Origin: a virus
Reading direction: 5' to 3' (one strand)
Virus record (IMG/VR): IMGVR_UViG_3300009159_000244
Location: 1 to 28,115 of that record
Length of the DNA stretch: 28,115 nucleotides
In this document: piece by piece, positions 1,108 through 22,683 of the stretch
Numbering within the stretch: position 1 is the first letter of the stretch
How the letters are laid out: the number at the start of each line of letters is the position of its first letter
Translations under genes and position numbers: made by a program
Notes under the pieces: generated by a model
The model's input: only the letters and a program-made list of their open reading frames with translations
What the model was told of the DNA's origin: nothing
The model's database searches: none

Positions 1108-1119
1108 CTATTTATTAGT
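1108..1119 (+). promoter_or_regulatory. Late-promoter-like motif CTATTTATTAGT
   Basis: CTATTTATTAGT abuts the ATG at 1120. It is one of eight occurrences of the CTATTTAT(T/A) element in front of genes in this window. If it acts as a -10 element, the transcript would begin within or just after the start codon. Confidence 0.4.
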
Positions 1120-1398
1120 ATGTATAGAATGAAGAAATTAAAGGTACGCGAGGCGGGGGATATGATCGCATCTAATCCCTATAATCCTAATAAGGAGTTA
1201 ACTATCATCGACGTTATCGCTATGGAACTAGAAAAGCTATCGTATAATGGATCGATACTGCCTGTTATGTATAGCCAAGCACTCGACCTGGCTAGAGGAC
1301 AGAAAAAAGTGATTAATAATATATATAGTAGGAATGGTCGCGACATCAAACCCATTATCATGCTCCTCCTCCGTCAAGTCCGTAATCGCCTTAAATAG
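1120..1398 (+). CDS. Hypothetical 92-residue protein with an 'REA' N-terminal motif
   Basis: Unrecognised. It begins MYRMKKLKVREAGDMI, sharing the K-x-x-R-E-A-x-x-[ML]-I signature with the gene at 809. The rest is helical (LTIIDVIAMELEKL and MYSQALDLARGQ) and the C-terminus is basic (LLRQVRNRLK). The start at 1120 directly abuts the late-promoter-like motif; ATG at 1129 is an alternative. CGC/CGT arginine codons recur, as in its neighbour. The basic C-terminus could bind nucleic acid, but this is not demonstrated. Confidence 0.55.
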   Translation: MYRMKKLKVREAGDMIASNPYNPNKELTIIDVIAMELEKLSYNGSILPVMYSQALDLARGQKKVINNIYSRNGRDIKPIIMLLLRQVRNRLK

Positions 1399-1410
1399 CT
1401 ATTTATTAAT
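1399..1410 (+). promoter_or_regulatory. Late-promoter-like motif CTATTTATTAAT
   Basis: CTATTTATTAAT runs straight into the ATG at 1411, overlapping the end of the previous gene's stop region. It is identical over all 12 bases to the copy at 3122. Confidence 0.45.
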
Positions 1411-1986
1411 ATGGAAGGTTTAGAGCAATTCTTTAAAGGTAAAGATTTAGGTTATGCAAGAGATCCTCGTACAATGGCTTATGCTAAGCTAAAGAAGAAT
1501 ACTCAAGGAATGGATCGAGAGCAACTCGAAGCATTTATTAATGCAAACCTAATGATACCTCATAGTCAATACAAAATGGCTTTGGGTAATTTAATTCAAT
1601 TTTTAAAAAAACAAGATCAAATGAGTAAATTAAACGAAGTTAAACAATTTCAAAAGATAGCAGGCCTTATAAATGAAAACTGGCATCCCGATGATCCTGC
1701 AGGCGTAGATATGGATGATATTGAAGATAAGGATCCTGAAGATTTTGATGATATTTCGGAAGATGATTATAGTGAAGATCCTTCTTCTGATATGGATGAT
1801 GAAAGTCAATCTGGTGATACTAGTGCAATGAATATTAACGAAGAGGGCGAAAGCATCACAATAGATATTCCTGAAAATACGGATTACAAGGAACTAGCAA
1901 AAGCTGTAGCTAAGGTACTAATTGATGATTACGGTGCACATAACTACAAACCCTTCTTACAGGCTTTAATATCAGAATTGAAATAG
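1411..1986 (+). CDS. Hypothetical acidic protein, likely late-expressed
   Basis: 191 residues with no recognised family. The N-terminal 90 residues are helical and mixed-charge. Residues of about 95-135 form a strongly acidic, low-complexity Asp/Glu/Ser segment (repeated D-D, E-D, D-P), and the last 40 residues are again folded-looking (DYKELAKAVAKVLIDDYGAH). This helical domain, acidic linker and small domain layout is seen in phage scaffold, neck and head-accessory proteins, but no motif decides. It has its own CTATTTATTAAT motif and is followed by a clear terminator at 2008, so it is probably a single-gene late transcript. Confidence 0.6.
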   Translation: MEGLEQFFKGKDLGYARDPRTMAYAKLKKNTQGMDREQLEAFINANLMIPHSQYKMALGNLIQFLKKQDQMSKLNEVKQFQKIAGLINENWHPDDPAGVDMDDIEDKDPEDFDDISEDDYSEDPSSDMDDESQSGDTSAMNINEEGESITIDIPENTDYKELAKAVAKVLIDDYGAHNYKPFLQALISELK

Positions 1987-2007
1987 TAATATAAACTAAC
2001 ACATTAG

Positions 2008-2032
2008 CACCCTCTTTACGAGGGTGTTTCTA
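2008..2032 (+). terminator. Rho-independent terminator
   Basis: The stem CACCCTC (2008-2014) pairs with GAGGGTG (2020-2026) around the loop TTTAC and is followed by TTTCTATTT. It is a seven-pair GC-rich hairpin directly after the stop at 1986. The T-rich tail runs into the next late-promoter-like motif at 2030, so the terminator and the downstream promoter are fused back to back. Confidence 0.75.
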
Positions 2033-2050
2033 TTTATACATATATAAACT
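2030..2050 (+). promoter_or_regulatory. Late-promoter-like motif CTATTTATAC
   Basis: CTATTTATAC lies 21 bases from its first base to the ATG at 2051, followed by an AT-only leader. It sits immediately after the terminator hairpin, as expected for a fresh transcription start. Confidence 0.4.
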
Positions 2051-3121
2051 ATGTACCGTTTGATAATAGAACATATCGCAAAACAAGTCTTTAGAGAGGT
2101 TCATACTCCTACTAAAGCTAAGCAAGAGTTACTTTCCTCGAAAGAGCATGGAAGTAAATTCTTACCTCTTTCAGATCCGCACCGTGTAGGTAATCCCGGT
2201 GATATTACAGATAAGGATTTTAAAGAAATTTTAAAATCGGTTTTTAAGATAAAAGATAAGGATATTGACCCTATAGAACCGGGCCCTGATAGTCCGAGCA
2301 GTAAATTTATGTCTTACCGATTTCCGTATAAGGGAAAAATGACTACATTAATATTAGCGGGTAAGGGTAAGGAAAAGATAGAAAGACAGGAAAGAGGATT
2401 AATAGCGGCAATTAACTCTATTGAAGGAGATAAGACTCTTGTATTTAAAAATAAAACTTTAAAAGGAGTTACTAAAATAAATAAAGCTACGCAAAAGGGA
2501 GAGGGTTATACTGCACAGCCTTATGCAGATTTAGATTTAGTTATTCAAGGTAAAACAGTAAAGATATCAGCTAAGGGACTTGATTCTCCTTCTTTAGGGA
2601 GCGGTGGACTTACCGGTCTTGATAATATAAATAATCCTGCTATTAATAGCTTTATTAAAGAAGCTTATGATAGATTAGCAGCAGATTATCGAGAAATAAT
2701 TGATAGAGATCCTAGATTAAGGGGACGAGATTTAAAAGGTAATAAGCTGTTTAGGGATTACTATGCTGTAATACCTCCAGAAGTAGAAATTCCTATCTTA
2801 AGGGGTACAAAGTCTATGGGCGGACCTATAGACTACATGTACATAGGTAGTATGGATGTCGGTATTGAGGTAGAGGGTAATACGATTACTATTGACGGTT
2901 CCTTATATACATTAGAAGAATTTGTTAATCAGGGAACTCCTCTTTATATAAGAATCACTAAAAGAAAAGGACCTTGTTACTTTACGACTGAAAGAAATAC
3001 TAAGCTCAAAAATATAGACGTACCTAAGATATTTGCAATCAAACCTGATGGTAGCGGACAAACTCAATCTAGACTCTTCGTTACTAATCGAGCTACTAAA
3101 AAGAAAGACTATCAATCTTAA
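2051..3121 (+). CDS. Hypothetical protein with a possible PD-(D/E)XK-nuclease-like core
   Basis: 356 residues, unknown. Residues 109-125 form a helix with Glu 111 and 114 (ERQERGLIAAINSI). Residues 158-176 read Y-A-D-L-D-L-V-I-x-x-K-x-V-K-I-S-A-K-G: an acidic strand, a turn, then a strand ending S-A-K. That order (E in a helix, D on a strand, x-x-K on the next strand) resembles the PD-(D/E)XK nuclease core, with the usual second acid replaced by Ser 173. A glycine/serine-rich loop follows (SLGSGGLTGL). The C-terminal 100 residues look like a beta-rich domain and end basic (ATKKKDYQS). It could be a nuclease or virion protein using the same fold; catalytic activity is uncertain. Late promoter and terminator motifs precede it. 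Confidence 0.5.
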   Translation: MYRLIIEHIAKQVFREVHTPTKAKQELLSSKEHGSKFLPLSDPHRVGNPGDITDKDFKEILKSVFKIKDKDIDPIEPGPDSPSSKFMSYRFPYKGKMTTLILAGKGKEKIERQERGLIAAINSIEGDKTLVFKNKTLKGVTKINKATQKGEGYTAQPYADLDLVIQGKTVKISAKGLDSPSLGSGGLTGLDNINNPAINSFIKEAYDRLAADYREIIDRDPRLRGRDLKGNKLFRDYYAVIPPEVEIPILRGTKSMGGPIDYMYIGSMDVGIEVEGNTITIDGSLYTLEEFVNQGTPLYIRITKRKGPCYFTTERNTKLKNIDVPKIFAIKPDGSGQTQSRLFVTNRATKKKDYQS

Positions 3122-3133
3122 CTATTTATTAAT
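3122..3133 (+). promoter_or_regulatory. Late-promoter-like motif CTATTTATTAAT
   Basis: CTATTTATTAAT begins one base after the previous stop codon and abuts the ATG at 3134. All 12 bases match the copy at 1399. Confidence 0.45.
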
Positions 3134-3379
3134 ATGATTAAACTATCTGAATTAATACAAGTAAAGCATCCTGAAAATACTCAATACCAGGTAGGAAAGA
3201 CTTTCAACGACCCGAGTGGTATGTTCGAAAATGGCGATCAGGTAGGTAAGATACATCAAGCGCTTATCGGAAGAGAGTTTCAAACACTTGAAGATATTAA
3301 AAAAATGTGCTCTAGATTAAGACAGTCTGGATTTGCACAATCAGATATAGACCAATTCTTAAGATCTTACATACTATAA
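3134..3379 (+). CDS. Hypothetical 81-residue protein
   Basis: No family is recognised. It begins MIKLSELIQVKHPEN and has an extended, Gly/Asn-containing middle, then two helices (IHQALIGREFQTLEDIKKMCSRL and FAQSDIDQFLRSYIL). It is preceded by a late-promoter-like motif and is separated from the next gene by one base, so the two are probably co-transcribed and translationally linked. Confidence 0.55.
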   Translation: MIKLSELIQVKHPENTQYQVGKTFNDPSGMFENGDQVGKIHQALIGREFQTLEDIKKMCSRLRQSGFAQSDIDQFLRSYIL

Positions 3380-3380
3380 T

Positions 3381-5569: not shown

Positions 5570-5842
5570 ATGATATTAGGATTAATTATGCTATTCATTT
5601 GGATAGCGACTGTTGTAGGTTGGGTTATTTACAACCTCTTTAATAAGAATAGAAAATTAGAAGTCACTGTTCTTGCTCAAGCTAATTTTATAGCAGGTTT
5701 ACAGCAATTGATTGGTGAATCAGATAAAGCACTTAAGAATCTTGATGATAAGATTTGGATGGATAGTGATAAAGAATTACAGACGGTATTTCAAAATCTA
5801 AAAGCAGTCCAAGAGGGCTTAAATCAATTTAATAAGCGATAA
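5570..5842 (+). CDS. Small membrane-anchored coiled-coil protein
   Basis: 90 residues. An N-terminal transmembrane helix (residues 1-22, LIMLFIWIATVVGWVIYNLF) is followed by a basic stop-transfer (NKNRK) and then a helical cytoplasmic or periplasmic tail with heptad-like hydrophobic residues. The last base of its stop codon is the first base of the next gene's ATG, so translation is coupled to the late sigma factor. Function is unknown. A role in tethering or in a membrane-linked step is conceivable, but it could simply be a co-transcribed small gene. Confidence 0.6.
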   Translation: MILGLIMLFIWIATVVGWVIYNLFNKNRKLEVTVLAQANFIAGLQQLIGESDKALKNLDDKIWMDSDKELQTVFQNLKAVQEGLNQFNKR

Positions 5843-6615
5843 TGGTTGAAGATATTTTCAAAGTCGAAGAAGCGGAAGTTACACTTACAAAGGATGGAAA
5901 AGTTAGAAAGAGAAGGCCAAAGAAGTCGATAGACTATTTTACCCTAGATACTCAACAAGCTATTCTTGATTATAGATTAGAAACCTCTACTGCAATTAGA
6001 AATAAAATATTTAATGAAAAGATTTACTACGCGTTTTATAAGTTGGCTGAAAATATCATTCATACTTTTAAATTCTACTACACAGAAGTAGATAATATTA
6101 ACGAATTGAAGCATGAGGTAATTGCTTTTTTATTAGAAAAACTACATTTATATAATCAAGATAAAGGTAAAGCTTATTCTTATTTTGGTACTATCGCAAA
6201 ACGTTATTTAATTGTTTATAATAATAATAACTACAAACGATTAAAAGGTAAAGCTACTGTTGAAGAAGTAGATACAGATAAGACGATTACAAATGAGTTA
6301 CTATTAACTCAACCAGATCATTTTGAAGAAGTTAATTTTATTGACCTATACATTAAAGAGGTTGATAATAACCTTTTAGATCTTTTTCCAAAACCACAAG
6401 AAGCTAGAGTTGGAGATGCTATTTTAGAACTATTTAAGAGGAGAGAAAATATAGACATCTTTAATAAGAAAGCTCTCTTCATATACATAAAGGAGATTAC
6501 TGACGCTCCTACTCCCGTGATTACTAAGGTAATAAAAGTTCTAAAAGAGATTTACAGAGAAATGCATAATCAATATCTTGAAGAAGGTACTGAAATTGAC
6601 ATTTATTCAAGCTAG
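5842..6615 (+). CDS. 55: Late-transcription RNA polymerase sigma factor (gp55-like)
   Basis: 257 residues. The basic N-terminus (GKVRKRRPKKSIDYFTLD) is followed by a sigma-region-2-like core at about 55-136, with helices around NELKHEVIAFLLEKLHLYN, then D-K-G-K-A-Y-S-Y-F-G-T-I-A-K-R-Y. That 'sharing of a YF-x-TI-x-(R/K)' segment is the hallmark of T4 gp55-type late sigma factors in T4-like and cyanophage genomes. T4 gp55 is shorter (185 residues); this one has an extra C-terminal helical portion (about 150-257). Known role: it replaces the host sigma factor and directs RNA polymerase to late promoters, with the sliding clamp as activator. The start overlaps the previous stop by one base (TAATG). 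The recurring CTATTTAT motifs are its likely targets. Confidence 0.75.
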   Translation: MVEDIFKVEEAEVTLTKDGKVRKRRPKKSIDYFTLDTQQAILDYRLETSTAIRNKIFNEKIYYAFYKLAENIIHTFKFYYTEVDNINELKHEVIAFLLEKLHLYNQDKGKAYSYFGTIAKRYLIVYNNNNYKRLKGKATVEEVDTDKTITNELLLTQPDHFEEVNFIDLYIKEVDNNLLDLFPKPQEARVGDAILELFKRRENIDIFNKKALFIYIKEITDAPTPVITKVIKVLKEIYREMHNQYLEEGTEIDIYSS

Positions 6616-6632
6616 CTATTTATTTAAAATAG
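6616..6632 (+). promoter_or_regulatory. Late-promoter-like motif CTATTTATTT with dyad
   Basis: CTATTTATTTA begins right at the end of the sigma-factor gene and 21 bases before ATG 6637. CTATTT (6616-6621) and AAATAG (6627-6632) are inverted repeats around ATTTA, so this copy also forms a dyad. Confidence 0.4.
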
Positions 6633-6636: not shown

Positions 6637-6999
6637 ATGAATCTCGATTTTGAATTATACGACGGAAAAAAGTATTCTGATCTAATACAAGATGTAATTA
6701 AGAACCATAAAAATAAGCAATCCCAGATTAAAACATTAATCGGGAACCTTACTGAAATGGTAGATGATGCAGGAACCGCTGTAATTATGGTTCCGTTAAT
6801 TAAAGAGTATTTAGAGATAGATGTTAAGAATGATGACGCTCTTGTAAAGCTTGCTTCAATATTACAGAAAGGCGGACAAGCAGGAGCTGATGCTAGCCAA
6901 GGAGGTTTAAGTGATAAGGATCTCGAATTACTGTTTAGTGATATTCAAAAAACTACAGTAGAAGAATTACAGATAAAGGAATTACCTTCAAGTAAGTAG
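6637..6999 (+). CDS. Hypothetical 120-residue protein heading the spike cluster
   Basis: Unrecognised. It is mostly helical: KYSDLIQDVIKNHKNKQSQIKTLIGNLTEMV, then MVPLIKEYLEIDVKNDDALVKLASIL, with a glycine/alanine-rich linker (GGQAGADASQGG) before the C-terminal helix. No signal peptide or membrane segment. It has its own late-promoter-like motif and is one base from the spike-like gene at 7001, which suggests a structural or assembly (chaperone-type) role in the same complex, though nothing in the sequence proves this. Confidence 0.55.
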   Translation: MNLDFELYDGKKYSDLIQDVIKNHKNKQSQIKTLIGNLTEMVDDAGTAVIMVPLIKEYLEIDVKNDDALVKLASILQKGGQAGADASQGGLSDKDLELLFSDIQKTTVEELQIKELPSSK

Positions 7000-7000
7000 T

Positions 7001-7951
7001 ATGGCAGATAATCAATCTTTTTCGCAGTTTATGAATTCTCTATCTCCGTTTGGAGGTGGAGGAGTTGGAAATGCACCTATACTAGCACGTGTTGCACACG
7101 TAGTTCAAGGGCCTTATTTTGTAGGAACCAGTATACCAGATCCCTACTACGATAATCCTACAGATATAAGCACTATAACCTTTCAGGTAATTAACTCAAA
7201 TCAAAGCTCTACCCTAACAAGCACTGGTAACGTTACTGCAAAACCTATAAACTCAGCATTTAAACAAGTACCTATTGAAGGAGAGATAGTATATGTAGTA
7301 CCTGGTCCTAGTGTAGATATGAATGAAAATGCGCAGCGCCAAGACTTTTATTATTTTCAACCTTATAATATATGGAATGCTGCTAATAATAACGCCTTTC
7401 CTAATATGCAAGACTACGGTGCTTACATAAACAGGATTCTACGTACCTACCAAGATAGTATGGGTACAAAGCAAGCTACAAATACTTCTGTAACTAGTTC
7501 CCTAACTTTTCCTCTAGGTCCAAATTTTCCTGAAAAAGCAGATGTTAAGACTTTAAGACAATTTACAGGTGATGTAACTTTAGAAGGAAGATGGGGCAAT
7601 TCAATTAGATTCGGATCTACTACAGCATTAAACGGATATGAAAATAACTGGTCAGCTACTGGATCTGCTGGAGAGCCTATTACTATTATAAGAAATGGAC
7701 AAGGTAAGCAAGCTAGTACTAAAGCATGGTTTCCTACTGTAGAAGATATTAATAGAGATCCTTCTTCTATATACTTAACTGCAGGACAGAAAATACAAAT
7801 TGATGATTTATCGAATTTTAGTTTAGCAAGTTTAAGTGTGCAAGTAGAGGTTATTAAAACAAACGCTATTCCAATTCAACAACAATTAACAAGCACTAAT
7901 ACTCTTTCTCTTCGACAACAAGATGAACGTATTAGTGAATTTAATAAATAA
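7001..7951 (+). CDS. Baseplate hub/spike-like structural protein, N-terminal part
   Basis: 316 residues. It is beta-rich: an N-terminal stretch NAPILARVAHVVQGPYFV leads into an OB-like segment with PIEGEIVYVVPGPS. The second half holds T-G-D-V-T-L-E-G-R-W-G-N-S-I-R-F-G, then GEPITIIRNGQ and DPSSIYLTAGQKI. These features recur in phage hub or spike proteins that combine an OB-like domain with a beta-helix-like region. The frame stops at TAA 7949-7951 just as the repetitive spike section should begin; the next gene (7953) continues it. A function in the central baseplate spike is inferred from the layout and neighbours. A puncturing-lysozyme domain, as in T4 gp5, is not seen. Confidence 0.5.
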   Translation: MADNQSFSQFMNSLSPFGGGGVGNAPILARVAHVVQGPYFVGTSIPDPYYDNPTDISTITFQVINSNQSSTLTSTGNVTAKPINSAFKQVPIEGEIVYVVPGPSVDMNENAQRQDFYYFQPYNIWNAANNNAFPNMQDYGAYINRILRTYQDSMGTKQATNTSVTSSLTFPLGPNFPEKADVKTLRQFTGDVTLEGRWGNSIRFGSTTALNGYENNWSATGSAGEPITIIRNGQGKQASTKAWFPTVEDINRDPSSIYLTAGQKIQIDDLSNFSLASLSVQVEVIKTNAIPIQQQLTSTNTLSLRQQDERISEFNK

Positions 7952-7952
7952 A

Positions 7953-8381
7953 ATGTATACACCTCAATTTCCATATTTAAGCAATCAAGCTATTATAACA
8001 TCAGGAAGAGTAACTATACACTCTTACGATGATTTTATCTTCTTGTTTGGTAAAAAAGGAGTAGCTATTTCCTCTCCTAGTACATTTACTGTAGACGCTA
8101 ACGAAAGAACTATTATAGCTTCTCGTCATATAGAATTGGGTTATCACGCAGAGACAATAGGAGAGCCTATAATGCTCGGTAAAACTACAGCGCAACAATT
8201 AGGACGTTTATTAGATGCTATTGATAATTTAAGTAAAGCTTTAAATACATTACAGATAGGAGAGATGGATACTGCTGTTCCTTTAATTAAACAAGCTTCT
8301 ATTGTTTTAAGTAGTACAGCTAAGAATGTAAAAGCACAGCTAAGTACTAGCTGCTTATCTAAAACTACATACACTAGGTAA
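7953..8381 (+). CDS. Spike-like beta-repeat protein, probable C-terminal part of the gene at 7001
   Basis: 142 residues from ATG 7953, two bases after the previous stop and in the +1 frame. It starts with strand-turn repeats (NQAIITSGRVTIHS, then FIFLFGKKGVAISSPSTFTVDA, then RTIIASRHIELG) like the stacked turns of a spike beta-helix. A helical tail follows (LLDAIDNLSKALNTL...). In comparable phage proteins I recall this segment being continuous with the LTAGQKI region of the upstream gene, so the two are probably one product split by gene fission, a frameshift or an assembly error. An alternative start upstream at 7923 overlaps the previous gene. The last base of its stop is the A of the next ATG. 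Confidence 0.5.
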   Translation: MYTPQFPYLSNQAIITSGRVTIHSYDDFIFLFGKKGVAISSPSTFTVDANERTIIASRHIELGYHAETIGEPIMLGKTTAQQLGRLLDAIDNLSKALNTLQIGEMDTAVPLIKQASIVLSSTAKNVKAQLSTSCLSKTTYTR

Positions 8382-10330
8382 TGAGTAATAGTAAAATTTT
8401 ACCCCCACTAGGAAAAGCGGTTGCAACTTCTGCAAACGCCCTCGGAACACTTCAAGTAGGTATAGATAAAGTATTATGGGGAAGTGATACTCCAACAACA
8501 AAAGCAACCGCTAAATACGATCCAGTATCTGGATCTTTAAAATATACTTCTGTACCAAGAACACCACCTACTCCTCCAAAAAATGCTATAGAATCCTTTG
8601 CACAGTCTGGTCTATTCAATGCACTCGATCTTTTAAATTCAGTAGACTTATGTAATATACTAACATATCTTACCGATATGACCTCTTCTAGCAAAAAAGC
8701 CCGTAAGCCAAAAACTGAATGGACTGCTGCTGAAACCGCCCTATACGCTCTTCAAGATGCTGCTGCACAAGTACAAACACAAATAGATAAGTATACAGCC
8801 TTTCCTAATGTTTTTATCGGATCATATGTAGGAACAGGACCAAACGCTGTGCCAATTGATCAAGCCGTATCTCAATCAGGAGCACCAAAAGACGGAGGCT
8901 CTCAAGTTACTGCCTACAATACATACTTTTTGATGCAAGCGATTAAAGATTCTTTTGATCTTTCTGGACAAAGCACTGGTTCTATATTTAATGCACAAGA
9001 TGCAACCTTATTATCTACAGTACCCGGACTTGGCGGTAATTTAAATTTTATAGATGATTTTATAGGAACGGTTAATAAGTATAGTGATTATAGAAATATT
9101 CCTAATACTGAATTACAAAAAATAGTAAATCAAATAAATCAAATCAGATCTGTATGCGTTACTATTCAGAACTTAGATTTTAAAAACGCAGCAGCTTTAG
9201 TAGGTAATTTTTTAGGAACCGATATTAGAGCTCAAATACAGAGATTAGGAGAGTTTATAAATCCTACTGGTATTATAAAAGAATTAAAAGGCATTAATAA
9301 TTCACTTCAAGCTTTTATTAGAATTGCACGACAAGTACAAGGTGTTTTGAGCTTAGGTCAATTTTTAATTAAACTAGCCTTAGTGTTTAATAAAATATTC
9401 GAATTTGTTCAGCAGTTTATTTTAAACTCCCCTCTTCCTGCAGCATTAGCTCCAGTAGGTGCTATTAGTAGACTTGAAGCAGCTAGAATAAGAGCTAAAG
9501 ACGAAACCGACGGAGTTAGCGTTCTTTTAAAGACTATTAATTCTCTCCTTGAAGTAGCTGTAAATTTTATAAGGTATATTCTTGCAAATACTAATGAATT
9601 AATTGGAAGATTGAGTATAATACTTGCTAATCTTGAAGCATGTGAAGCAGTTAAAAACTCAGACGTAATATCTCAACTTCAAGAAACTAGGAATAATTTA
9701 ATAGCTTTACAAGATCAATTTAAAACTTATATAACGCAATATGACTCTAAAACAGATATAAGAAGTAAAATGTTTGGAGTATATGATATTAGAGTAGTAG
9801 ATGAGGAATTAACTGATAGAGCGGTAACAAATAAAAGAAGAAGGGGAATAGCACTAGATATAAGCGGTCAAATAGTAGCTCAGTCAGATCTAACTTTCGC
9901 AACAAATACATCAGTAATTATAGCAGAAGTACAGCATAAGCTAATGGCTCTTGGATTAGTTAAATCTGGAGTAGGCTTAATTGATGCAGCAACGTTAGGA
10001 ACTATTGCAACTTCTATTAACTACTTAGATAGCAATGATGTAGCAGAAAATGATTTGAATATAGGTAAATCTGCAAAAGATAGCGCAGCTACAGCACAAG
10101 CTTTAAATATATCCACCTTTATAGATAAAACACCTGGAGGACAGGCATTTAGACAAAAATCAAATGAAATAATGGATGTTTATACCGCTAATGCAAAACA
10201 GCAAGCTAGCGGACAGAAAACGAGCACAAGTAATGGAGCTGGATCTAGTGCAGGAAATACGCAGAATATAAACAAAGTAGGGTATAATAATATAGGGCTA
10301 AATAACAAAGACACTAAGACACTAAGATAA
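8381..10330 (+). CDS. Large helical virion structural protein
   Basis: 649 residues. A Ser/Thr/Pro-rich N-terminus (about 1-75, including PRTPPTPP) is followed by long alpha-helical sections with few charged motifs. These include a hydrophobic helical stretch around residues 315-360 that is amphipathic rather than a clear membrane span, and a helical section to about 475 (LQETRNNLIALQDQFKTYIT). Near 490-530 is a compact segment with NKRRRGIALDISGQIVAQ. The C-terminal 80 residues are low-complexity and Ser/Asn/Gly/Gln-rich. Position directly after the spike genes and before the wedge operon points to a baseplate or tail structural protein. No named family is recognised, and a tape-measure role is possible but not supported by repeats or length. 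Confidence 0.5.
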   Translation: MSNSKILPPLGKAVATSANALGTLQVGIDKVLWGSDTPTTKATAKYDPVSGSLKYTSVPRTPPTPPKNAIESFAQSGLFNALDLLNSVDLCNILTYLTDMTSSSKKARKPKTEWTAAETALYALQDAAAQVQTQIDKYTAFPNVFIGSYVGTGPNAVPIDQAVSQSGAPKDGGSQVTAYNTYFLMQAIKDSFDLSGQSTGSIFNAQDATLLSTVPGLGGNLNFIDDFIGTVNKYSDYRNIPNTELQKIVNQINQIRSVCVTIQNLDFKNAAALVGNFLGTDIRAQIQRLGEFINPTGIIKELKGINNSLQAFIRIARQVQGVLSLGQFLIKLALVFNKIFEFVQQFILNSPLPAALAPVGAISRLEAARIRAKDETDGVSVLLKTINSLLEVAVNFIRYILANTNELIGRLSIILANLEACEAVKNSDVISQLQETRNNLIALQDQFKTYITQYDSKTDIRSKMFGVYDIRVVDEELTDRAVTNKRRRGIALDISGQIVAQSDLTFATNTSVIIAEVQHKLMALGLVKSGVGLIDAATLGTIATSINYLDSNDVAENDLNIGKSAKDSAATAQALNISTFIDKTPGGQAFRQKSNEIMDVYTANAKQQASGQKTSTSNGAGSSAGNTQNINKVGYNNIGLNNKDTKTLR

Positions 10331-10348: not shown

Positions 10349-10361
10349 ATATTTATAACAT
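10349..10361 (+). promoter_or_regulatory. Late-promoter-like motif ATATTTATAACAT
   Basis: ATATTTATAACAT abuts the ATG at 10362. It shares the TATTTATAA core with the copy at 19397 but lacks the leading C. Confidence 0.35.
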
Positions 10362-10793
10362 ATGGCAAATTCAGACGCACTTAGAAAATTAATCCGCGAA
10401 GAGGTTAGAGCTGTATTCCAACAAGAATTAGCTGGAATCCTAAAAGAAGCTATTATAGCTAATAAAGGTCAGCAAACTATCGTAGAATCGACGAGACCTA
10501 TAGCAAAACCAGCTACTCCTGCTACTATGAACAGATCTGTACCTAGACCTATCGCCCCTGTATTATCCCCAGGCAATCCATTGAATAGCCTACTTGCCGA
10601 GACAGCTCAATCTATGACTATGGATGAATTCGGTGATTTAAATGGTGAGGGAGTAGAAAAAGACGTTCCTATTGTAGAATCAGTAGGAGAAATGTTTGCA
10701 TCTGCAAAAGGAAGATCTAATCTAGAAGCAATTCAAATTAATGCAGTTCCTGATTTTACTCACATGATGGCGAAAATGGGCATAAACGAATAG
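10362..10793 (+). CDS. Hypothetical 143-residue protein at the head of the baseplate wedge operon
   Basis: An N-terminal amphipathic helix (residues 1-35, SDALRKLIREEVRAVFQQELAG) is followed by a long Pro/Thr/Ala-rich extended region (about 45-80) and a short C-terminal segment (NAVPDFTHMMAKMG). This looks like a small oligomerising helix plus a flexible tail, common in virion accessory proteins. It lies five bases upstream of the gp25-like gene and behind its own late-promoter-like motif. No homologue is named. Confidence 0.55.
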   Translation: MANSDALRKLIREEVRAVFQQELAGILKEAIIANKGQQTIVESTRPIAKPATPATMNRSVPRPIAPVLSPGNPLNSLLAETAQSMTMDEFGDLNGEGVEKDVPIVESVGEMFASAKGRSNLEAIQINAVPDFTHMMAKMGINE

Positions 10794-10798
10794 TATAA

Positions 10799-13064: not shown

Positions 13065-13068
13065 TAAA

Positions 13069-14313: not shown

Positions 14314-14660
14314 TGTCAGAAGAAGTTAAATTAATAAAAGAAGTTTACGGACGTAATACTTACGTAACGGTAATAGATACATCTTTTAGTGAATTATATA
14401 GTCCTGTTACTGCTTCTGTACAGCCAGGCATAAATACTTCGGTTGAATTATTCTTCGATGCATATAACGCACTCTTTTTTCAAATACCAGCTACTGGAGA
14501 ATTAAACTCTCACGAGTACTTAGTAAGAAGAAGTACAGAATATTTAGGCGGAGGAGTAATGACCGATACAGAAAAAGCTTATATTGAAGAGATAAACTCT
14601 TTAAGGCAGCAATTGCTAGAAGCAAGTACGGATTATTTAAATGTAAATAACATAGTTTAA
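14313..14660 (+). CDS. Small baseplate-associated protein
   Basis: 115 residues, unrecognised. Beta-strands (NTYVTVIDTSF..., TASVQPGINTSVELFF) are followed by a helical C-terminus (TDTEKAYIEEINSLRQQLLEAS) that could form a coiled coil. One-base overlaps (TAATG) tie it to both neighbours, so it is translated with the DNRLRE-type gene before it and the giant gene after it. This tight coupling is the main reason to infer a role in the same wedge complex. Confidence 0.6.
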   Translation: MSEEVKLIKEVYGRNTYVTVIDTSFSELYSPVTASVQPGINTSVELFFDAYNALFFQIPATGELNSHEYLVRRSTEYLGGGVMTDTEKAYIEEINSLRQQLLEASTDYLNVNNIV

Positions 14661-17600
14661 TGGAAATAGTAAATGTATCCTATATTGGATCTAAAGATCA
14701 GTATCAAAGCTATGCACCACAAGATGTAGCTCTGATTAATACTAATTCTATTACCGGAAATTACGGTAGCTTTGGTGACTATATAGAGTATTTTATAAAA
14801 GATTTAAACGGTAGAGTTTTAAATGCCGAATATTATGCAACACAATATCAGCTAAATGATAGCGTTGTTGATCCTATAACGCGTACAACGACTCAACTCT
14901 ACCTAGATCCAGAAAGAGATGCTAGAGCTTTAGGTTATGATAGAGGAATAGTTAATGTTAAGTATAATTTCTTTAACGCAAAACTACTCTCTCTACCAGA
15001 TCCATCAGCGCATTTTTGGATTAAAGAAATTTCTACTTCTGGACTTGAAATTAAAGCTGCCAGACAAGGAGTAAGTAATAGTGAGCTTCAAAGAGCATTT
15101 ACACAGTTTAATAATGAATTATCAGCCGATCCATATTACCCTACTTTCTATTTAAATTTCGGTGCAGATATACAAGTAATAGGTGTAAATGCAGTATACG
15201 TAGAGGAAGATGGAATTGGGTATATTATTTTTAAGCTATACGAACCCTTACCTGTTGAATTTAATGTTAAGTCTACCTTCTGGGTAGTAACTACAGTTGC
15301 AGATTCTGCAGAATTTAATGTATCTATTAATGTTATAGCAGAAAAAGCTGTAGATAGTAAAGCTATTAAGGGACCCAACTATAAGGTCTCAGTAAATAAT
15401 AAAGTGGGTCAAACCACACCATACTACTCTTACGAGTCTCTACTATTAACTTCCGTAACTTCATCTTATCAACAGTTACAATCTTTAATGCAAGAGAAAG
15501 GTATTGAGATTAACGTTGACTATAGCGAGTTTGCAAACTTTATACACTTTTCTTCTGCTACAGAAAGATTATATAATTTCGTTTATAAGGTACAATTAAT
15601 TGAATCTGCTTCTGCAGGCTTAAACGAACCTAATACCAGCACTGCAAAAGTACTTTTACAAAATCAAATAGATACTACTATTACCAATTTTGATGGATAC
15701 GAGTATTACCTATATTTTGATTCCGCTTCAACATCATACCCGAAACAAACCTCTACACAACCTTACCCGCTTTACTCTTTAACTTCTTCACAAGCCGTAA
15801 ACTGGCTAGGAAGTCTTGATATCGCACCTAATGGCCCGGCTACAATGAGTATGTACTGGTCATCTTCGTACTATGACGATCAAAATAAAGACTTGTTACT
15901 GTATGCAACTCCTGCCTATATAACAGAAGATCCCGCAAATGCCCCTTACCTTGTTTTCTTAAACATGATAGGTCAACATTTTGATAATATTTGGATTTAT
16001 ATAAAAGATATAACCAATCACTACTCTGCAGAAAATAATCCATTTATAGGTATTTCGATGGAGCAGGTAGCAGATGCATTAAGAAGTTTTGGTGTACAAT
16101 TATACACTAATACAAGTATTACAGATAATATCTACTATTCTCTACTCGGATTAAATCAAACAGGATCTTCACTACCAGTTACTTCAAGCGCCTATTCTAT
16201 AAGCAATGTAGCAAGTAGTAGTATCTATCCTTTATCTGGAAGCGCTTATTTAAGCTCTTCTCTATCCTTGCCTCCTTTTGGTGAAGAAAAAATTAATAGG
16301 TATGTAATATCATTCGTTACAGGATCTAATCCTTCATCTAGTTTTGCTACCCTTCCTGCATCTCAACTTCAAGGAGAGACTTATAAACGTCTCTACCATA
16401 ACCTCGCTTATTTACTTAAGACTAGAGGTACAGAAAGAGGCGTAAGAGCTCTAATTACTACGTTTGGTATTCCTGGCGATATTTTAGATCCGCATGAATA
16501 CGGAGGTTATAATATCTACCAAGTACCAGGTATTCAGGAAATAAGCAATACAAAAATTATTACCGGAAGCGTTTTAAACATTTCTAGCAGTCTTTTATCT
16601 CCGTATACTACAATTCAATATTACCAAAACAATCAAGATAAGACTTCTAATACTGTAGAGGTTGGCTTTTCACCAGCAGACTCTATTAACGCAAGCATTA
16701 CATCTTCAGGACTTGTTACTTCTTCTACACAACCCGGGTATTTTAATATTATGCAGCTTATTGGTGCACCTAATTTACAGTACTCCAGTTCATATATCCC
16801 TCTTGTTAACTTAGCAAATACTTATTTTAGTGCTGAATATACAAGTAAGTATAATGTTTGGGATTTTATTAGAGTTATAAAATACTATAACAACTCAGTA
16901 TTTAAAATGCTAAGAGACTGGATGCCTGCTAGAGCTTCTGCTACAACAGGTATTGCTATTCAATCTCACATGCTTGAGAGAAACAAATACCCAAGACATG
17001 AACCTACTTATACAATACTTTCTGGATCTGCTCAAATTAGAATGGTTACTATTTCCGGATCTGACGGAGGCGCAGTTCAAAACGATACCTACTATGTAGA
17101 AGCAATACCAGTACAGTATCAATCAAACTCGGTATATTTAGGAAATGCTTCTGGAACTATCTACATGAGCTCCTCTAATAATATTCAAAAATACACAGGG
17201 GAATTTAGCGGTAGTACTATAGCTGCAGATTATACTTACTTCACTCAAGAAGAGGTTTCTTCCTATATCTACCCTTGGACATCATCAGTTGCTACCTCTA
17301 CTGCAGGAGGCAATATAATGTTCTTAACATATTCGTTAAGTCCGACGTTAAATAATATTACAGGCAGTGTTATATCTCAAAGATTCTTAGAGTTAGACTA
17401 TAACAGCAGTCAAGTTACTCCAGTAAACTTTGGATTAGTTACACAATCTCTATCACAAAGTCTTGTAATTGGTAACATATCTCAAAGTATGCAACCTTAT
17501 TCTCAGTATGCACAGCTACAAGACTACAATTATTACCTGCCTTCAACAGTAAGTATTCGTTATAGCGGTTCTTATTTGAGAGGTACGGGTTATAATACAT

Positions 17601-19372
17601 GGAGTGTTGGGGATATTTCATACGGTACTGATCCTGTAATTAATTATTACAGTAGTAGATTAGGACTGTTTACACAAATTCAATCTAGTTCGTTTATACC
17701 TGGAGTTGTTAATGCAAGCTTAGGATATCTAGCAGATGTTTCAGGCGGTCTATTTGAATTAAACCAAAATAATAGAAACTGGGTTGATCTTCAAAACATA
17801 TTTGTAGCAGGAACTAACTTAACTATTAAGCAATTTGATAATAAAAAGTATAGTAATCAAGTAGCTACAGACGGTATAAAAACTATTTACAATAGCGGAT
17901 ATAATTACACTCCTCAACTCTATTTTCAATCTCAATCAGATAATGTTCTCTACTTCCAATATACCGGAGATTCAAGTATAACTAGCTTTATAGCTTCTTT
18001 AACCGGAACACCAAACTATAATATTAGCGGAGCTGCTAGTCCAGTCTATCCAGTAACAGCTTTAACAAATACAGCAACTAGAGCAGGAAGTGTGTATAAG
18101 ATCTTCGATATAGCGAGTCCATCAACATATTTTTCACCCGGTAATGCAACTAATTTCCCGTCCTATTCTGCACCGCAAGCAGGACAGAGAGAGTTTACCG
18201 TGAATTTAGGAGTAAATTTTGAATTTACAGATCCTTCTGTAAGTCCAACTAGCGGATCTTACGATTTTGGAGCTTACTTAAATGGGAGTCAATTAATAGG
18301 AAATGTACAATCTATTAATTTTACTTCTAGTTATACACCAGCTACAACAGGCACCGGCTCAATTAACAGCCCCGGTACAGCGAATGTAGATTCCGGCTTT
18401 AACTATAATTACCAGACTAATTACGGTACATTTACGGGACCATTTCTTTTAAATGGAAATCCTACCGTATTAGGAGATTCTGGTTCAGTCTTAGTAGTAG
18501 ACATTTATACATGGAGACAAGGAGGAGTTAATATCACTGCACCACTAGTAACTTCTAATACCGGAGCTACAGTTACCGGTGTATATCCTGAAGATACAAG
18601 TGCAACGCCGACTCGAATTCAACAAATTAGTAGTGCAACAACAATACCAGCTAGTAGCATAAGTACAGCAACTAAAACTATAAGCTACACAACATCTCCA
18701 GTAACTGTTGGTGTAAATGAGCCGGTAGTATTTAAATTTACACAAGGAGGAATGTCTAGCGCAAATTACACAGCCTCCCTTACTAGTAACAGTAGCTTGA
18801 CTGTAGGAACTATTGCAATAGGTGCAGGCGGATATCCATATGCAACAACACAGTCTGGTTACTTTATAAGCAGCTTTGCAAATCTCGACGGGAATTACTC
18901 TAGTATAACGCTTAGTTCAAACCTAGCTCAGTACGGAGGATACCAATTTGTACCATATTTCATATCAGCTTCCGTTACCTATAGTAGCAGCCTCTATACA
19001 AGATATGGAGATGTTAATACAAATTTCTTACCTCAAAATGGGGATAAGGTAATTCTAATTGATAATTCAGGTATTTCGCAAGATCTAGACGTTTATAGCT
19101 TTTCAGGCGATACTATTATTGTAGCAGGAGATATACTTTCTAACTGGGTAATTAATCCATCTTTAGTTAAAACTTTTTTACTATTAAAGAAGTATAATGA
19201 CGAACAAAACGTTATATTAACGTTTAATAAGCCGCCAGGTGCAACATCTTACGGATTTATTATTCCGGAGACTATAAGTCCTACAGTAGTAAATAACATT
19301 AACACATTACAGGCTAATGTACAGGCTCAATTATTATCAACTCAGGCTTCTGCCAATATCAGTACCCTGTAA
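14660..19372 (+). CDS. Giant baseplate wedge/tail protein with a gp7/gpI-like segment
   Basis: 1570 residues, by far the largest gene here. Residues about 573-615 read LYHNLAYLLKTRGTERGVRALITTFG, followed by DILDPHEYGG. A helix followed by [K/T]-R-G-T-x-x-[GA]-x-R-x-L-x-x-x-[FG] is the hallmark of the P2 gpI family, whose counterpart in T4 is gp7, partner of gp6. The region about 730-790 (VWDFIRVIKYYNNSVFKML, then LERNKYPRHEP) is helical and also occurs in long phage tail proteins. N- and C-terminal thirds are beta-rich and Ser/Thr/Tyr/Asn-heavy, as in tail fibres, so this may be gp7 extended by fibre-type domains. It immediately follows gp6 and partners, matching the wedge order. Confidence 0.6.
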   Translation: MEIVNVSYIGSKDQYQSYAPQDVALINTNSITGNYGSFGDYIEYFIKDLNGRVLNAEYYATQYQLNDSVVDPITRTTTQLYLDPERDARALGYDRGIVNVKYNFFNAKLLSLPDPSAHFWIKEISTSGLEIKAARQGVSNSELQRAFTQFNNELSADPYYPTFYLNFGADIQVIGVNAVYVEEDGIGYIIFKLYEPLPVEFNVKSTFWVVTTVADSAEFNVSINVIAEKAVDSKAIKGPNYKVSVNNKVGQTTPYYSYESLLLTSVTSSYQQLQSLMQEKGIEINVDYSEFANFIHFSSATERLYNFVYKVQLIESASAGLNEPNTSTAKVLLQNQIDTTITNFDGYEYYLYFDSASTSYPKQTSTQPYPLYSLTSSQAVNWLGSLDIAPNGPATMSMYWSSSYYDDQNKDLLLYATPAYITEDPANAPYLVFLNMIGQHFDNIWIYIKDITNHYSAENNPFIGISMEQVADALRSFGVQLYTNTSITDNIYYSLLGLNQTGSSLPVTSSAYSISNVASSSIYPLSGSAYLSSSLSLPPFGEEKINRYVISFVTGSNPSSSFATLPASQLQGETYKRLYHNLAYLLKTRGTERGVRALITTFGIPGDILDPHEYGGYNIYQVPGIQEISNTKIITGSVLNISSSLLSPYTTIQYYQNNQDKTSNTVEVGFSPADSINASITSSGLVTSSTQPGYFNIMQLIGAPNLQYSSSYIPLVNLANTYFSAEYTSKYNVWDFIRVIKYYNNSVFKMLRDWMPARASATTGIAIQSHMLERNKYPRHEPTYTILSGSAQIRMVTISGSDGGAVQNDTYYVEAIPVQYQSNSVYLGNASGTIYMSSSNNIQKYTGEFSGSTIAADYTYFTQEEVSSYIYPWTSSVATSTAGGNIMFLTYSLSPTLNNITGSVISQRFLELDYNSSQVTPVNFGLVTQSLSQSLVIGNISQSMQPYSQYAQLQDYNYYLPSTVSIRYSGSYLRGTGYNTWSVGDISYGTDPVINYYSSRLGLFTQIQSSSFIPGVVNASLGYLADVSGGLFELNQNNRNWVDLQNIFVAGTNLTIKQFDNKKYSNQVATDGIKTIYNSGYNYTPQLYFQSQSDNVLYFQYTGDSSITSFIASLTGTPNYNISGAASPVYPVTALTNTATRAGSVYKIFDIASPSTYFSPGNATNFPSYSAPQAGQREFTVNLGVNFEFTDPSVSPTSGSYDFGAYLNGSQLIGNVQSINFTSSYTPATTGTGSINSPGTANVDSGFNYNYQTNYGTFTGPFLLNGNPTVLGDSGSVLVVDIYTWRQGGVNITAPLVTSNTGATVTGVYPEDTSATPTRIQQISSATTIPASSISTATKTISYTTSPVTVGVNEPVVFKFTQGGMSSANYTASLTSNSSLTVGTIAIGAGGYPYATTQSGYFISSFANLDGNYSSITLSSNLAQYGGYQFVPYFISASVTYSSSLYTRYGDVNTNFLPQNGDKVILIDNSGISQDLDVYSFSGDTIIVAGDILSNWVINPSLVKTFLLLKKYNDEQNVILTFNKPPGATSYGFIIPETISPTVVNNINTLQANVQAQLLSTQASANISTL

Positions 19373-19396: not shown

Positions 19397-19409
19397 CTAT
19401 TTATAATAG
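19397..19409 (+). promoter_or_regulatory. Late-promoter-like motif CTATTTATAATAG
   Basis: CTATTTATAATAG is itself an inverted repeat (CTATT-TAT-AATAG) and lies 27 bases before ATG 19424, followed by an A-rich leader. It opens a new transcription unit after the giant wedge gene. Confidence 0.4.
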
Positions 19410-19423
19410 AAAAACAATAAAAC

Positions 19424-20092
19424 ATGGGATATTTAAATAACACATCGGTTGTTGTCGACGCCATTCTTACCGACAAAGGCAGACAGTTGTTAGCACAAAA
19501 CGACGGATCTTTCCAAATTACACAGTTTTCACTGTCAGATGATGAAGTAGATTACACATTATACAACCCGAATCATCCTTCAGGCTCAGCATTTTATGGC
19601 GAAGCTATTGAAAATATGCCAATTATACAGGCTTTTCCGGAGGCTAATGAGATTATGAAGTATAAGTTGATTACTCTACCAAGAGGAACAGCTAAACTTC
19701 CAGTAGTAACCGTTGGATACAACACTATTGTATTGAAACAAGGTTCTTCTCTTTCTCTTACACCTCAAACATTGAATTATTTAGGTGCAACTTCTACTTT
19801 CGAACAGTCTGGATACGTTGCAACAATAGGAGACGTAAGAACAATGTCTGCATTTAACGGTGTAGGTATTACAACTCCTAATGCAACTGCATTAAACGCT
19901 ACAGGAACCACTACAGTAGGTACAAATGTATCAAAAACTGTAATAGGTACTACAATCAACTTGACTGCTACGACCGTAAACACATTGTTCGGTACAAACA
20001 CTACGTTATATACTACATTAACTGTTATAGGTCGTGATTCAGGTGCAAGAATATTAATCCCAGTTCAAATCCAACAAGTAACACAATCATAA
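19424..20092 (+). CDS. Tail-tip/structural protein with 'ILTDKGRQLL' signature
   Basis: 222 residues. The N-terminal 80 residues hold VVVDAILTDKGRQLLAQNDGSFQITQFSLSDDEVDYTLYN, a pattern I recall from virion proteins of large phages (I-L-T-x-K-G-R-x-L-L-A, then F-x-x-x-D-D-E-x-D-Y-x-L-Y-N). The C-terminal half is a Thr/Asn/Val-rich beta domain with a short repeat-like set (TATTVNTLFGTNTTLYTTLTV). No enzymatic motif. Behind its own late-promoter-like motif and five bases from the next structural gene. The precise virion position is unknown. Confidence 0.6.
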   Translation: MGYLNNTSVVVDAILTDKGRQLLAQNDGSFQITQFSLSDDEVDYTLYNPNHPSGSAFYGEAIENMPIIQAFPEANEIMKYKLITLPRGTAKLPVVTVGYNTIVLKQGSSLSLTPQTLNYLGATSTFEQSGYVATIGDVRTMSAFNGVGITTPNATALNATGTTTVGTNVSKTVIGTTINLTATTVNTLFGTNTTLYTTLTVIGRDSGARILIPVQIQQVTQS

Positions 20093-20096
20093 GAAT

Positions 20097-21188
20097 ATGT
20101 CATTTACACAGTTAAATCCCTCAGATTTCGTAGTAAGTTCCGATGCTATTACAGCTCCAGCATGGAGCTCTAACGTACCAACTCTTACTAGCTTTTATAC
20201 AGCTTCATCTACCGTAACCACTACAGTAAGTGCAGGTGCATATTACTTAAACGTATTACAACAACAATACGGAACTAACGGTGCAGCAGTTCAATTTGCA
20301 ATTGCATACGGTAACATTAACGGCTCAGGATCTCAATGGTTAAACAGTCTTGTACCAGGAGTTTCTCCTTCTTTAACTACATACAACCAGTATCAAACTT
20401 TAGTTTACGGACCAGAAGTAACAGGCTCTCAAGGCTTCAACTTCGGTGGTGCTGCTTTAAGATCTCCAGATATTTGGGTTCTTAATATTGATAGAAATAG
20501 ATACAAGCAAAGTTTAATGCCAGGTACTTTTACCTTACAATTAAAGAATGGTAACAACTGGATAAACATTTGCGACAATAGTAACGATTCTTCTGTTATA
20601 AATTATTTAGATTGCGGTAGAGTATTTAACTTAGTTTCTGGATCTTATGGTAGAGCAGCTAATGTAACTGTATCTGGATCTACATTAGGACCAGGCTATA
20701 CAGCTTCCGGATCTTACGGATACTACTTACCAGATATCGGAACCATAATTTTAAATCCAGGTGCATTAGCATTAGCTCCAGTAAGCGGTGGTATCAGTAT
20801 TTCAAGAGACCTTTCAAGTAATCCAAGCCTACCTTATAGTTCTTTAAATAATACTTACCTATATCAAGCAATTTCTGCAAGCGGAACTATTCCAACAACA
20901 GGAAGCTTACCAGGATTTCAATTAAATTCACAAGAAAATGTATCTTCTGATTACGTTTTTATAAGAATTGGTAACTCACAATATAATTACTCAACAAACC
21001 CAACGTTTACTTCTGGATCGAGCGGTGCTGTACTTTATCAAACAATGGTTTATAGTCCACAAACCTTCCCTACAACAGTCGGATTATATAATAATAACAG
21101 TGAACTTCTAGCAGTAGCTAAATTATCACAAGCCTTAGTTAAAGATTTTACAAAAGAAGCATTAATTAGAGTTAAGTTAGATTGGTAA
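20097..21188 (+). CDS. Tail structural protein, likely fibre- or tip-associated
   Basis: 363 residues, Ser/Thr/Gly/Tyr/Asn-rich and beta-dominated. It opens MSFTQLNPSDFVVSSDAITAP, a phrase I associate with virion proteins of T4-like marine phages. The middle holds GFNFGGAALRSPDIWVLNIDRNRYKQSLMPGTFTLQLKNGNNW. The C-terminus is a short amphipathic helix (VAKLSQALVKDFTKEALIRVKLDW). It sits between the 'ILTDKG' protein and the first Thr-Pro-rich fibre. No catalytic motif. Confidence 0.5.
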   Translation: MSFTQLNPSDFVVSSDAITAPAWSSNVPTLTSFYTASSTVTTTVSAGAYYLNVLQQQYGTNGAAVQFAIAYGNINGSGSQWLNSLVPGVSPSLTTYNQYQTLVYGPEVTGSQGFNFGGAALRSPDIWVLNIDRNRYKQSLMPGTFTLQLKNGNNWINICDNSNDSSVINYLDCGRVFNLVSGSYGRAANVTVSGSTLGPGYTASGSYGYYLPDIGTIILNPGALALAPVSGGISISRDLSSNPSLPYSSLNNTYLYQAISASGTIPTTGSLPGFQLNSQENVSSDYVFIRIGNSQYNYSTNPTFTSGSSGAVLYQTMVYSPQTFPTTVGLYNNNSELLAVAKLSQALVKDFTKEALIRVKLDW

Positions 21189-21200
21189 TAATAAAATAAA

Positions 21201-22601
21201 ATGAGTAGAGCATCAAATAGTCTTTTAGTTTCTGATGTAACAGCTACTCCCATTAAACTTAAGTACTCTTCTTCTTATAGTAATACTACTATATGCGATT
21301 CAGGTATTTATGCACAAAGTGGGTTAAATGGCCCCGTTACAGTAACAGGCTCAGTGCCGCAAAGAACTTTGCGATATTGGTCTATTAGACATTTGTTCTA
21401 TTCTAACTTCTTGACTGGTAGTTATTTGACTACAACCTCTAGCCTAGATAATTTCTTACAATCTACAGCAGCCTCTGGAACCTTCGAAGGAAATACTACT
21501 TTATCTGCTTCAACTGATTTACGTTATTTTCCTACAGAGTCTCTTTCCAAAGTCAAAATTATTAATATTCCAAAAAATACTTTTGGTGAAAAAGTTTCTA
21601 GAAAAAGCTTTTTTTTAACTGGAAGTGGCTATGCTATAGCAGATGATGGAAACGGGAACGTATATGATACCGCCACAAGAGCACACGTAGGTAACATTAT
21701 TTATCCTCAGGGATTTGTAGTTATCACCAATCCAGACTACTATTGTGCAATGGATGGCGGCCCCTTTACATTCCCCAAGACTTACGTTTTTGATATATCC
21801 GATAATCCAAAGACTTTTAACCCTATTACGGATGCACAACCCGATTGTGCTCCTGTCGATACCTCTACCCTAACCTTAATAACTGCTTCTGGATGGTTAT
21901 TTCCTAGTAGTAGTCAAGATAATTTAGGTAATGTTACACTTAGTTCAACCGATACGCTATCTACTAGAGTCGGTTATTATAGAGATTACTATACCGTTAA
22001 GTCTACTTACTGTGCTTCATCTGATAAGCAACCTATTAATCTTAAACTAATTGACTGTACGATAGTAGGACTAACAGCTTCCTTTATTTCTCCTACCCCA
22101 ACTCCTACACTTACTATAACACCTACCCTAACACCTACCGATTCACCTACGCCAACACCTACCCTAACTGCTACATATACTCCTACACCAACAACAGGAT
22201 CCCTAACTCCAACTCCAACGATTACTCCTACATTAACCACAACACCAACTTTAACAGTAACACCAACTCAAACTATAACCCCTACTCTAACCGTTACCCC
22301 GACTCCAAATACACCTGACCCAGACTTTACAACACTTTATGTAGCCTCTCTTAAAGCAAACGCTTGCGATGAGGTTAATTACCAGTATACTATTCCATCT
22401 CATACTTATACAGGCACTAATAACTTTTGTAATTGTACTTCTTTAAACGGTGCTAATGTAGTAGGTATACCAGCAGGAACCTATTGGCTACATGAACAAG
22501 GAAATACAGCAGGCGCAAGACAGTTTACTAGGGGAGTCGGTCCGGGAATAACATTAATGACAGCAGTAAACGGAGCAGATGGAGGATGTACAGTATGCTA
22601 A
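21201..22601 (+). CDS. Tail fibre-like protein with Thr-Pro-rich linker and Cys-rich tip domain
   Basis: 466 residues. Residues 1-295 form a structural domain with a segment S-K-V-K-I-I-N-I-P-K-N-T-F-G-E-K and, later, VGNIIYPQGFVVITNP, which I recall in phage tail proteins. Residues 298-370 are a low-complexity linker of T-P-T and T-P-T-[ILT]-T units. Residues about 372-466 are a terminal domain with several Cys (NFCNC, GCTVC) and a Gly-rich stretch, presumably the receptor-facing tip. The linker would make a stiff, extended rod. Thr density makes it a possible O-glycosylation target. There is no Shine-Dalgarno sequence before the ATG (AATAAAATG). Confidence 0.6.
   Translation: MSRASNSLLVSDVTATPIKLKYSSSYSNTTICDSGIYAQSGLNGPVTVTGSVPQRTLRYWSIRHLFYSNFLTGSYLTTTSSLDNFLQSTAASGTFEGNTTLSASTDLRYFPTESLSKVKIINIPKNTFGEKVSRKSFFLTGSGYAIADDGNGNVYDTATRAHVGNIIYPQGFVVITNPDYYCAMDGGPFTFPKTYVFDISDNPKTFNPITDAQPDCAPVDTSTLTLITASGWLFPSSSQDNLGNVTLSSTDTLSTRVGYYRDYYTVKSTYCASSDKQPINLKLIDCTIVGLTASFISPTPTPTLTITPTLTPTDSPTPTPTLTATYTPTPTTGSLTPTPTITPTLTTTPTLTVTPTQTITPTLTVTPTPNTPDPDFTTLYVASLKANACDEVNYQYTIPSHTYTGTNNFCNCTSLNGANVVGIPAGTYWLHEQGNTAGARQFTRGVGPGITLMTAVNGADGGCTVC
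22092..22310 (+). repeat. Thr-Pro-coding low-complexity repeat (linker of the first fibre)
   Basis: About 220 bases of short ACN-CCN-type units encoding T-P-T, T-P-T-L-T and similar. Codon choice among ACA/ACT/ACC and CCA/CCT/CCC/CCG varies freely from unit to unit, so the DNA repeat is degenerate while the protein repeat is well kept. Confidence 0.7.
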
Positions 22602-22656
22602 TAAGTAAAAGTTAAAATATATAGCTATAATAAACATTAGAAACACGCTGTTAAAA

Positions 22657-22683
22657 CTATTTATTAAATATATTATATAATAC
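22657..22683 (+). promoter_or_regulatory. Late-promoter-like motif CTATTTATTAAATA
   Basis: CTATTTATTAAATA starts 27 bases before ATG 22684 and is followed by an AT-only leader. It marks a separate transcription unit for the long Thr-Pro fibre. Confidence 0.4.

Follow-up and report, generated by a model that had tools for sequence, protein, structure and literature searches.

A recurrent box ahead of genes in the window

The window analyzed here, all 28,115 nucleotides (nt) of IMG/VR virus record IMGVR_UViG_3300009159_000244, is a genome fragment (28 kb) from a T4-like phage, with its genes on the + strand. Baseplate proteins of the gp25 and gp6 types were identifiable among its products, a putative sigma factor is encoded at 5842, and Rfam and tRNA scans over the window gave no matches. 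A short AT-rich element, [C/A]TATTTATW, recurs ahead of genes in this DNA and is examined below as a candidate late promoter (Table 1). Searching for CTATTTATW yielded eight matches on the + strand (1108, 1399, 2030, 3122, 6616, 19397, 22657, and 5227) and none on the − strand; the match at 5227, which was absent from the initial annotation, lies inside a coding sequence, as does an additional CTATTTAT at 13772. The eight positions that the initial annotation had placed ahead of genes all contained the element, including the variant at 10349 with A in place of C, which was verified as ATATTTATA. All eight sites are intergenic and on the coding strand; in order of position, the ATG follows the last T of TATTTAT after gaps of 4, 4, 13, 4, 13, 5, 19, and 19 nt.

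Shuffling of the whole window indicated a modest excess (eight CTATTTATW vs 3.2 expected, with 2 of 100 shuffles reaching eight). Counting on both strands relative to start codons, the check that had been proposed along with the element, revealed strong enrichment before genes: [CA]TATTTAT was present in the final 35 nt of 8 of the 14 intergenic segments and in none on the antisense strand, compared to a mean of 0.24 segments (maximum of 4 in 20,000) after dinucleotide shuffling of the intergenic DNA. The T4 box TATAAATA showed no enrichment in the window, with 7 copies against 8.3 expected.

Table 1. Candidate late promoter boxes and associated features of the window; promoter roles, transcription units, and leader lengths are predictions.
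Feature	Position	Strand	Comment
Candidate late promoter -10 box CTATTTATT	1108..1116	+	Would head 1120-1398; ATG gap 4 nt, predicted leaderless
Candidate late promoter -10 box CTATTTATT	1399..1407	+	In the 12 nt that separate stop 1398 from ATG 1411; predicted leaderless
Predicted hairpin terminator, 9 pairs, loop 5	2006..2028	+	Directly 5' of box at 2030
Candidate late promoter -10 box CTATTTATA	2030..2038	+	Would head 2051-3121; predicted leader 8 nt
Candidate late promoter -10 box CTATTTATT	3122..3130	+	Would head 3134 onward; predicted leaderless
Putative gp55-like sigma-70 family factor, 257 aa	5842..6615	+	Weak sigma-70 matches and structure
Candidate late promoter -10 box CTATTTATT	6616..6624	+	Would head operon 6637-10330; predicted leader 8 nt
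Candidate late promoter -10 box ATATTTATA	10349..10357	+	Would head baseplate operon 10362-19372; predicted leaderless, start = A of ATG 10362
Candidate late promoter -10 box CTATTTATA	19397..19405	+	Would head 19424-22601; predicted leader 14 nt
Candidate late promoter -10 box CTATTTATT	22657..22665	+	Would head 22684-25584; predicted leader 14 nt

Conservation of the box in related phages

Relatives were gathered by using the sigma factor as bait (160 contigs fetched), and every 7-mer in the 40 nt upstream of genes was counted in an unbiased scan. The closest cultured relative was Flavobacterium phage vB_FspM_immuto (immuto; 160 kb), with a sigma factor 44% identical and a gp6-like protein 43% identical to those of the window. 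TATTTAT ranked first among upstream 7-mers in the close relatives (92 upstream regions in the sense direction and 7 in antisense, with 6.9 expected) and again in the immuto-like group, where it was found in 156 of 966 upstream regions vs 12.5 expected. When the same procedure was applied to 60 nt upstream in the T4 late region as a positive control, it returned ATAAATA and TATAAAT, so the scan does detect an established late promoter, and in the correct orientation.

Presence of the box depended on the gene that follows. The box was retained in 113 of the 114 distinct sequences upstream of 6637 orthologs and in all 70 upstream of 10362 orthologs (ATG gap of 4-7 nt), even at less than 60% protein identity, and it was also kept ahead of 3134 (5/5 distinct upstream sequences), 1120 (4/5 close orthologs, ≥80% identity), and 19424 (2/3 upstream sequences). 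No ortholog of the sigma gene (0/32) or of the operon-internal genes 5570 (0/88), 10799 (0/95), and 11202 (0/77) possessed it, nor did any of 8381 (0/23). This all-or-none presence by downstream gene is the pattern of operon-head promoters rather than of a ribosome signal.

In the 183 of 184 upstream sequences of the 6637 and 10362 sets that carry the box, TATTTAT was preceded only by C or A and followed only by A or T. Farther upstream, the nonredundant sites exhibited no conserved sequence, the information being concentrated in [CA]TATTTATW. Every box-bearing sequence of the 6637 set (113 of 113) had an A 12 nt downstream of the first T, and A was the commonest base at +11 and +12 in the other leadered sites, which suggests that transcription starts 11-12 nt downstream of this T. 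No TATTTAT enrichment was evident in the stretches read from Microcystis phage Mel-JY01 and uncultured phage LR756508, whose sigma factors are more distantly related, and the box thus seems confined to the part of the family that comprises the Flavobacterium phages. Querying viral contigs with the Mel-JY01 sigma found no relatives. A literature search covering few subscription journals returned no account of the box, or of any late promoter of these phages. Considered together with the results below, [C/A]TATTTATW is very probably a sense-strand -10 late promoter used by the phage's own gp55-like sigma factor in a broad clade of T4-like Bacteroidetes phages, and most likely represents a late promoter of a type already known, in which the core sequence is new, the sigma factor has diverged, and some starts are leaderless.

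Late-module bias and a second promoter-like class

The immuto genome carries the box before 19 of 73 genes of the morphogenesis modules vs 10 of 159 genes elsewhere (p = 6e-5), and one of the boxes outside these modules (43413) is situated just before an endolysin and a holin gene. A second promoter-like class, TTG-N20-TATATTTAG, had an identical spacer in 39 of 39 copies (immuto and its relatives G001 and G002). Its fuller form, GTTGC...TTC(N)TATATTTAGGTAT, occurs in the region of small early-type genes (immuto 22-76 kb; G001), and none of the 20 copies in immuto fell in its late modules. This two-box class resembles the Bacteroidetes housekeeping promoter. Because it is host-like and lies outside the late modules, these phages appear to have an early promoter class of host type plus a separate, late-biased TATTTATW class. 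In G002 only one copy of the early-type promoter was detected and the late box was conserved; the early promoter may be spelled differently there.

These two classes bear on the alternative that the box is a sense promoter read by the primary Bacteroidetes sigma factor of the host together with a phage activator, with the 5842 protein acting elsewhere. The register of the box matches that of the -7 element TAHHTTTG of Flavobacterium johnsoniae, which spans T-12 to G-5 and lies 4-5 nt from the start (PMC6847099), and TATTTATW shares T-12, A-11, T-8, and T-6 with this element. The host consensus, however, requires T-7 and G-5, whereas the box has A at -7, has G at -5 in 0 of 183 ortholog sites, and lacks the upstream TTG that accompanies the housekeeping element at -33. 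With a distinct host-like class avoiding the late modules and a sigma gene of the phage's own, we consider reading of the box by the host sigma factor unlikely. As a separate observation, TAHHTTTG in the intergenic DNA of immuto, G001, and G002 was rarer in the sense than in the antisense direction (1 vs 11, 4 vs 16, and 5 vs 8), as if avoided before phage genes.

Spacing to the start codon

The gaps between box and ATG were bimodal, with one class at 4-6 nt and another at ∼10-24 nt and nearly no sites at 7-9 nt. If transcription starts 11-12 nt downstream of the first T, transcripts of the 4-6 nt class would begin at the A of the ATG or at a neighboring base. All 70 orthologs of 10362 (gaps of 4-7 nt) belong to this short-gap class. 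At sites 1108, 1399, 3122, and 10349, the -10 box is located ∼10-12 nt before the start codon, and from their sequence the mRNAs arising at boxes with 4-6 nt gaps are predicted to be leaderless. A similar arrangement was described for TA-led leaderless bacterial genes, in which TANNNT precedes the start codon by ∼12 bp, so that the -10 box is positioned for a start at the ATG (PMC3160421). Unlike those genes, the present sites would be phage late promoters with a fixed core, and the mRNAs of F. johnsoniae are mostly leadered: 87% of its transcripts with a probable promoter have leaders >10 nt (PMC6847099). A conserved leaderless late gene would therefore be unusual, and would offer a case for studying translation initiation in Flavobacterium.

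The same spacing data argue against the box being a translation-initiation or mRNA-stability signal in the 5' leader that replaces the Shine-Dalgarno sequence. Such a role would be in keeping with an AT-rich box near the ATG and with Bacteroidetes mRNAs lacking Shine-Dalgarno sequences (PMC6847099), but gap lengths run from 4 to >20 nt with hardly any at 7-9 nt, most genes have no box, late modules are favored, and the box directly follows hairpin terminators in several cases. On these grounds, and above all on the all-or-none distribution by gene, a translation signal was rejected as very improbable.

The terminator at 2006..2028 illustrates the last of these features. Its T tail extends into the promoter box at 2030, and the same layout was seen in three relatives (L010, L023, and L045). 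A hairpin-T terminator was found upstream of 4/38, 1/28, and 5/86 nonredundant box sites vs 22/427, 3/274, and 22/995 box-less genes. Since this enrichment is weak, terminator adjacency was set aside as general proof and serves as illustration only.

Direction of reading

The strand distribution of MTATTTATW (M is C or A) was strongly skewed in three near-complete genomes (44:7, 42:5, and 11:48, the third being stored reversed) but not in T4 (13:14), and the excess coincided with the coding strand in all three. Among intergenic sites within 40 nt of an ATG in these genomes, 29, 26, and 25 were sense, and 3, 1, and 1 fit an antisense reading only. The gap from the box to the downstream ATG was constrained, whereas its distance to the upstream stop codon was broad. 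Upstream of genes in the relatives, TATAAATA was found mostly on the antisense strand.

The initial annotation had noted that the element marks late-gene borders and resembles the reverse complement of the T4 late promoter, and both observations stand; the explanations that it offered fared less well, so that its interpretation is supported only in part. A sigma factor that reads the element in the opposite orientation is unnecessary: reverse complementation of TATAAATA to TATTTATA alters two central positions and no others, so that TATTTATW in the sense direction amounts to the T4 box with AA changed to TT. That the minus-strand element ATAAATAG is instead a T4-like promoter making antisense RNA at gene borders, as the fit of the reverse complement to TATAAATA where W is A would allow, is scarcely credible and was rejected in view of the excess on the coding strand, the anchoring to the ATG rather than to the upstream stop, the dependence on the downstream gene, and the late operons that would be left with no promoters.

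The sigma factor encoded at 5842

The 5842 protein comprises sigma region 2 (approximately residues 31-137) and an extra helical domain at its C terminus (approximately residues 165-248). By itself it had no family match in Pfam or PHROGs, and scanning of 20 family members gave weak sigma-70 matches (PHROG, Pfam, and NCBIfam). An AlphaFold model of the protein (mean predicted local distance difference test score, pLDDT, of 70) was submitted to Foldseek, for which the best matches were nearly all sigma factors, none below an E value of 0.001. T4 gp55 in the open complex (7d7c_F) ranked second by structural Z score (9.8, with a root-mean-square deviation of 4.0 over 105 aligned residues). The sigma region 2 fold and the place of gp55 among the best structural matches bear out the initial assignment of a sigma factor. 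A search of the relatives with T4 gp55 as query gave no matches, nor did a search of Protein Data Bank sequences with the sigma profile. The homologue in immuto is gp118 (L090:28174-28872), annotated as a hypothetical protein.

When modeled alone, the C-terminal domain reached a pLDDT of 81.5 and gave weak structural matches only, such as Mycobacterium tuberculosis SigH (Z of 4.5); as modeled, this conserved helical domain, possibly a sigma-4-like one, has no clear match among solved structures. The C terminus of the protein is unlike LDFLYE, the clamp-binding tail of the T4 factor. Because the window is only a fragment of its genome, the gp45 clamp was sought in relatives: neither of the gp45 families (PF09116 and PF02916) was detected in immuto or in two near-complete relatives, although both were found in T4. 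Clamp-coupled activation of the T4 style is thus not supported. Coupling of late transcription to the clamp of the host is possible.

Interpretation and comparison with known systems

From the enrichment, direction, position, and conservation of the box, its late-module bias, and the sigma region 2 fold of the 5842 product, we infer its promoter role, its reading by this sigma factor, and the start sites. Without a -35 element, RNA polymerase carrying the gp55-like factor (5842-6615) would read the box in the sense orientation and initiate ∼11-12 nt downstream of its first T. Each box would drive one late transcription unit (1120, 1411, 2051, 3134 onward, 6637-10330, 10362-19372, 19424-22601, and 22684). 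Where the ATG follows the box by 4-6 nt, the mRNA may be leaderless, and elsewhere the leader would be ∼5-20 nt long.

Several points weigh against this model. The literature searched contained no mapped 5' ends for these phages, and it is by association that the 5842 sigma factor, and not another phage or host factor, is taken to read the box. Its link to gp55 is structural and is weak in sequence, with an hhalign E value of 0.016 but a probability of 2.8%. Furthermore, some boxes occur in the non-structural part of immuto (9/147 genes), and terminator adjacency, striking in single cases, is weakly enriched overall.

The T4 late promoters with gp55, gp33, and gp45 (PMC2988020, PMC7892883) provide the closest comparison. 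Both systems exhibit a short AT-rich box that heads late virion operons and here, too, probably lies roughly one helical turn ahead of the start. Neither has a conserved -35 sequence, and the structural model of the 5842 protein has a sigma region 2 fold near that of gp55 (7d7c_F). The base before the core is relaxed in both, being A or T at -13 in T4-like phages and C or A here. In contrast, the core is TATTTATW rather than TATAAATA or NATAAATA, the sigma factor has the extra C-terminal domain, gp45 was not found in the three near-complete genomes, and the T4 boxes that were scanned end 14-28 nt before the ATG, compared to 4-5 nt at four sites of the window. A diverged late box identified in silico has a precedent in CTAAATA of Aeromonas phage Aeh1, a T4-like phage (PMC1524935), which differs in sequence, phage group, and host.

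A bolder reading, which we put forward tentatively and hold to be somewhat improbable, is a widespread, clamp-free T4-like late system in which a two-domain gp55-type sigma factor alone reads the re-specified TATTTATW and the conserved late operons that it serves, the baseplate operon among them, give leaderless mRNAs, in hosts of a phylum without Shine-Dalgarno sequences in its mRNAs. It raises the question of whether late transcription is separable from the replication clamp. For the late promoter itself, the box provides a testable rule for common, little-studied environmental Bacteroidetes phages (hundreds of contigs with at least 600 matches) and allows late operons to be called from sequence. 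The comparison suggests that changing its two central bases can give the T4 late box a new specificity, and the pairing of this change with a diverged sigma factor could be used to map the residues that read the box.

Other features of the window

Two adjacent genes (21201-25584) encode products with TPT/ITPT repeats; the second has its own late box, and in its product the repeats are placed between similar non-repeat segments. Downstream, TAAATTTG at 25609-25616 is a perfect host-type -7 element ∼32 nt 5' of a glycosyltransferase gene (25649) that has no late box.

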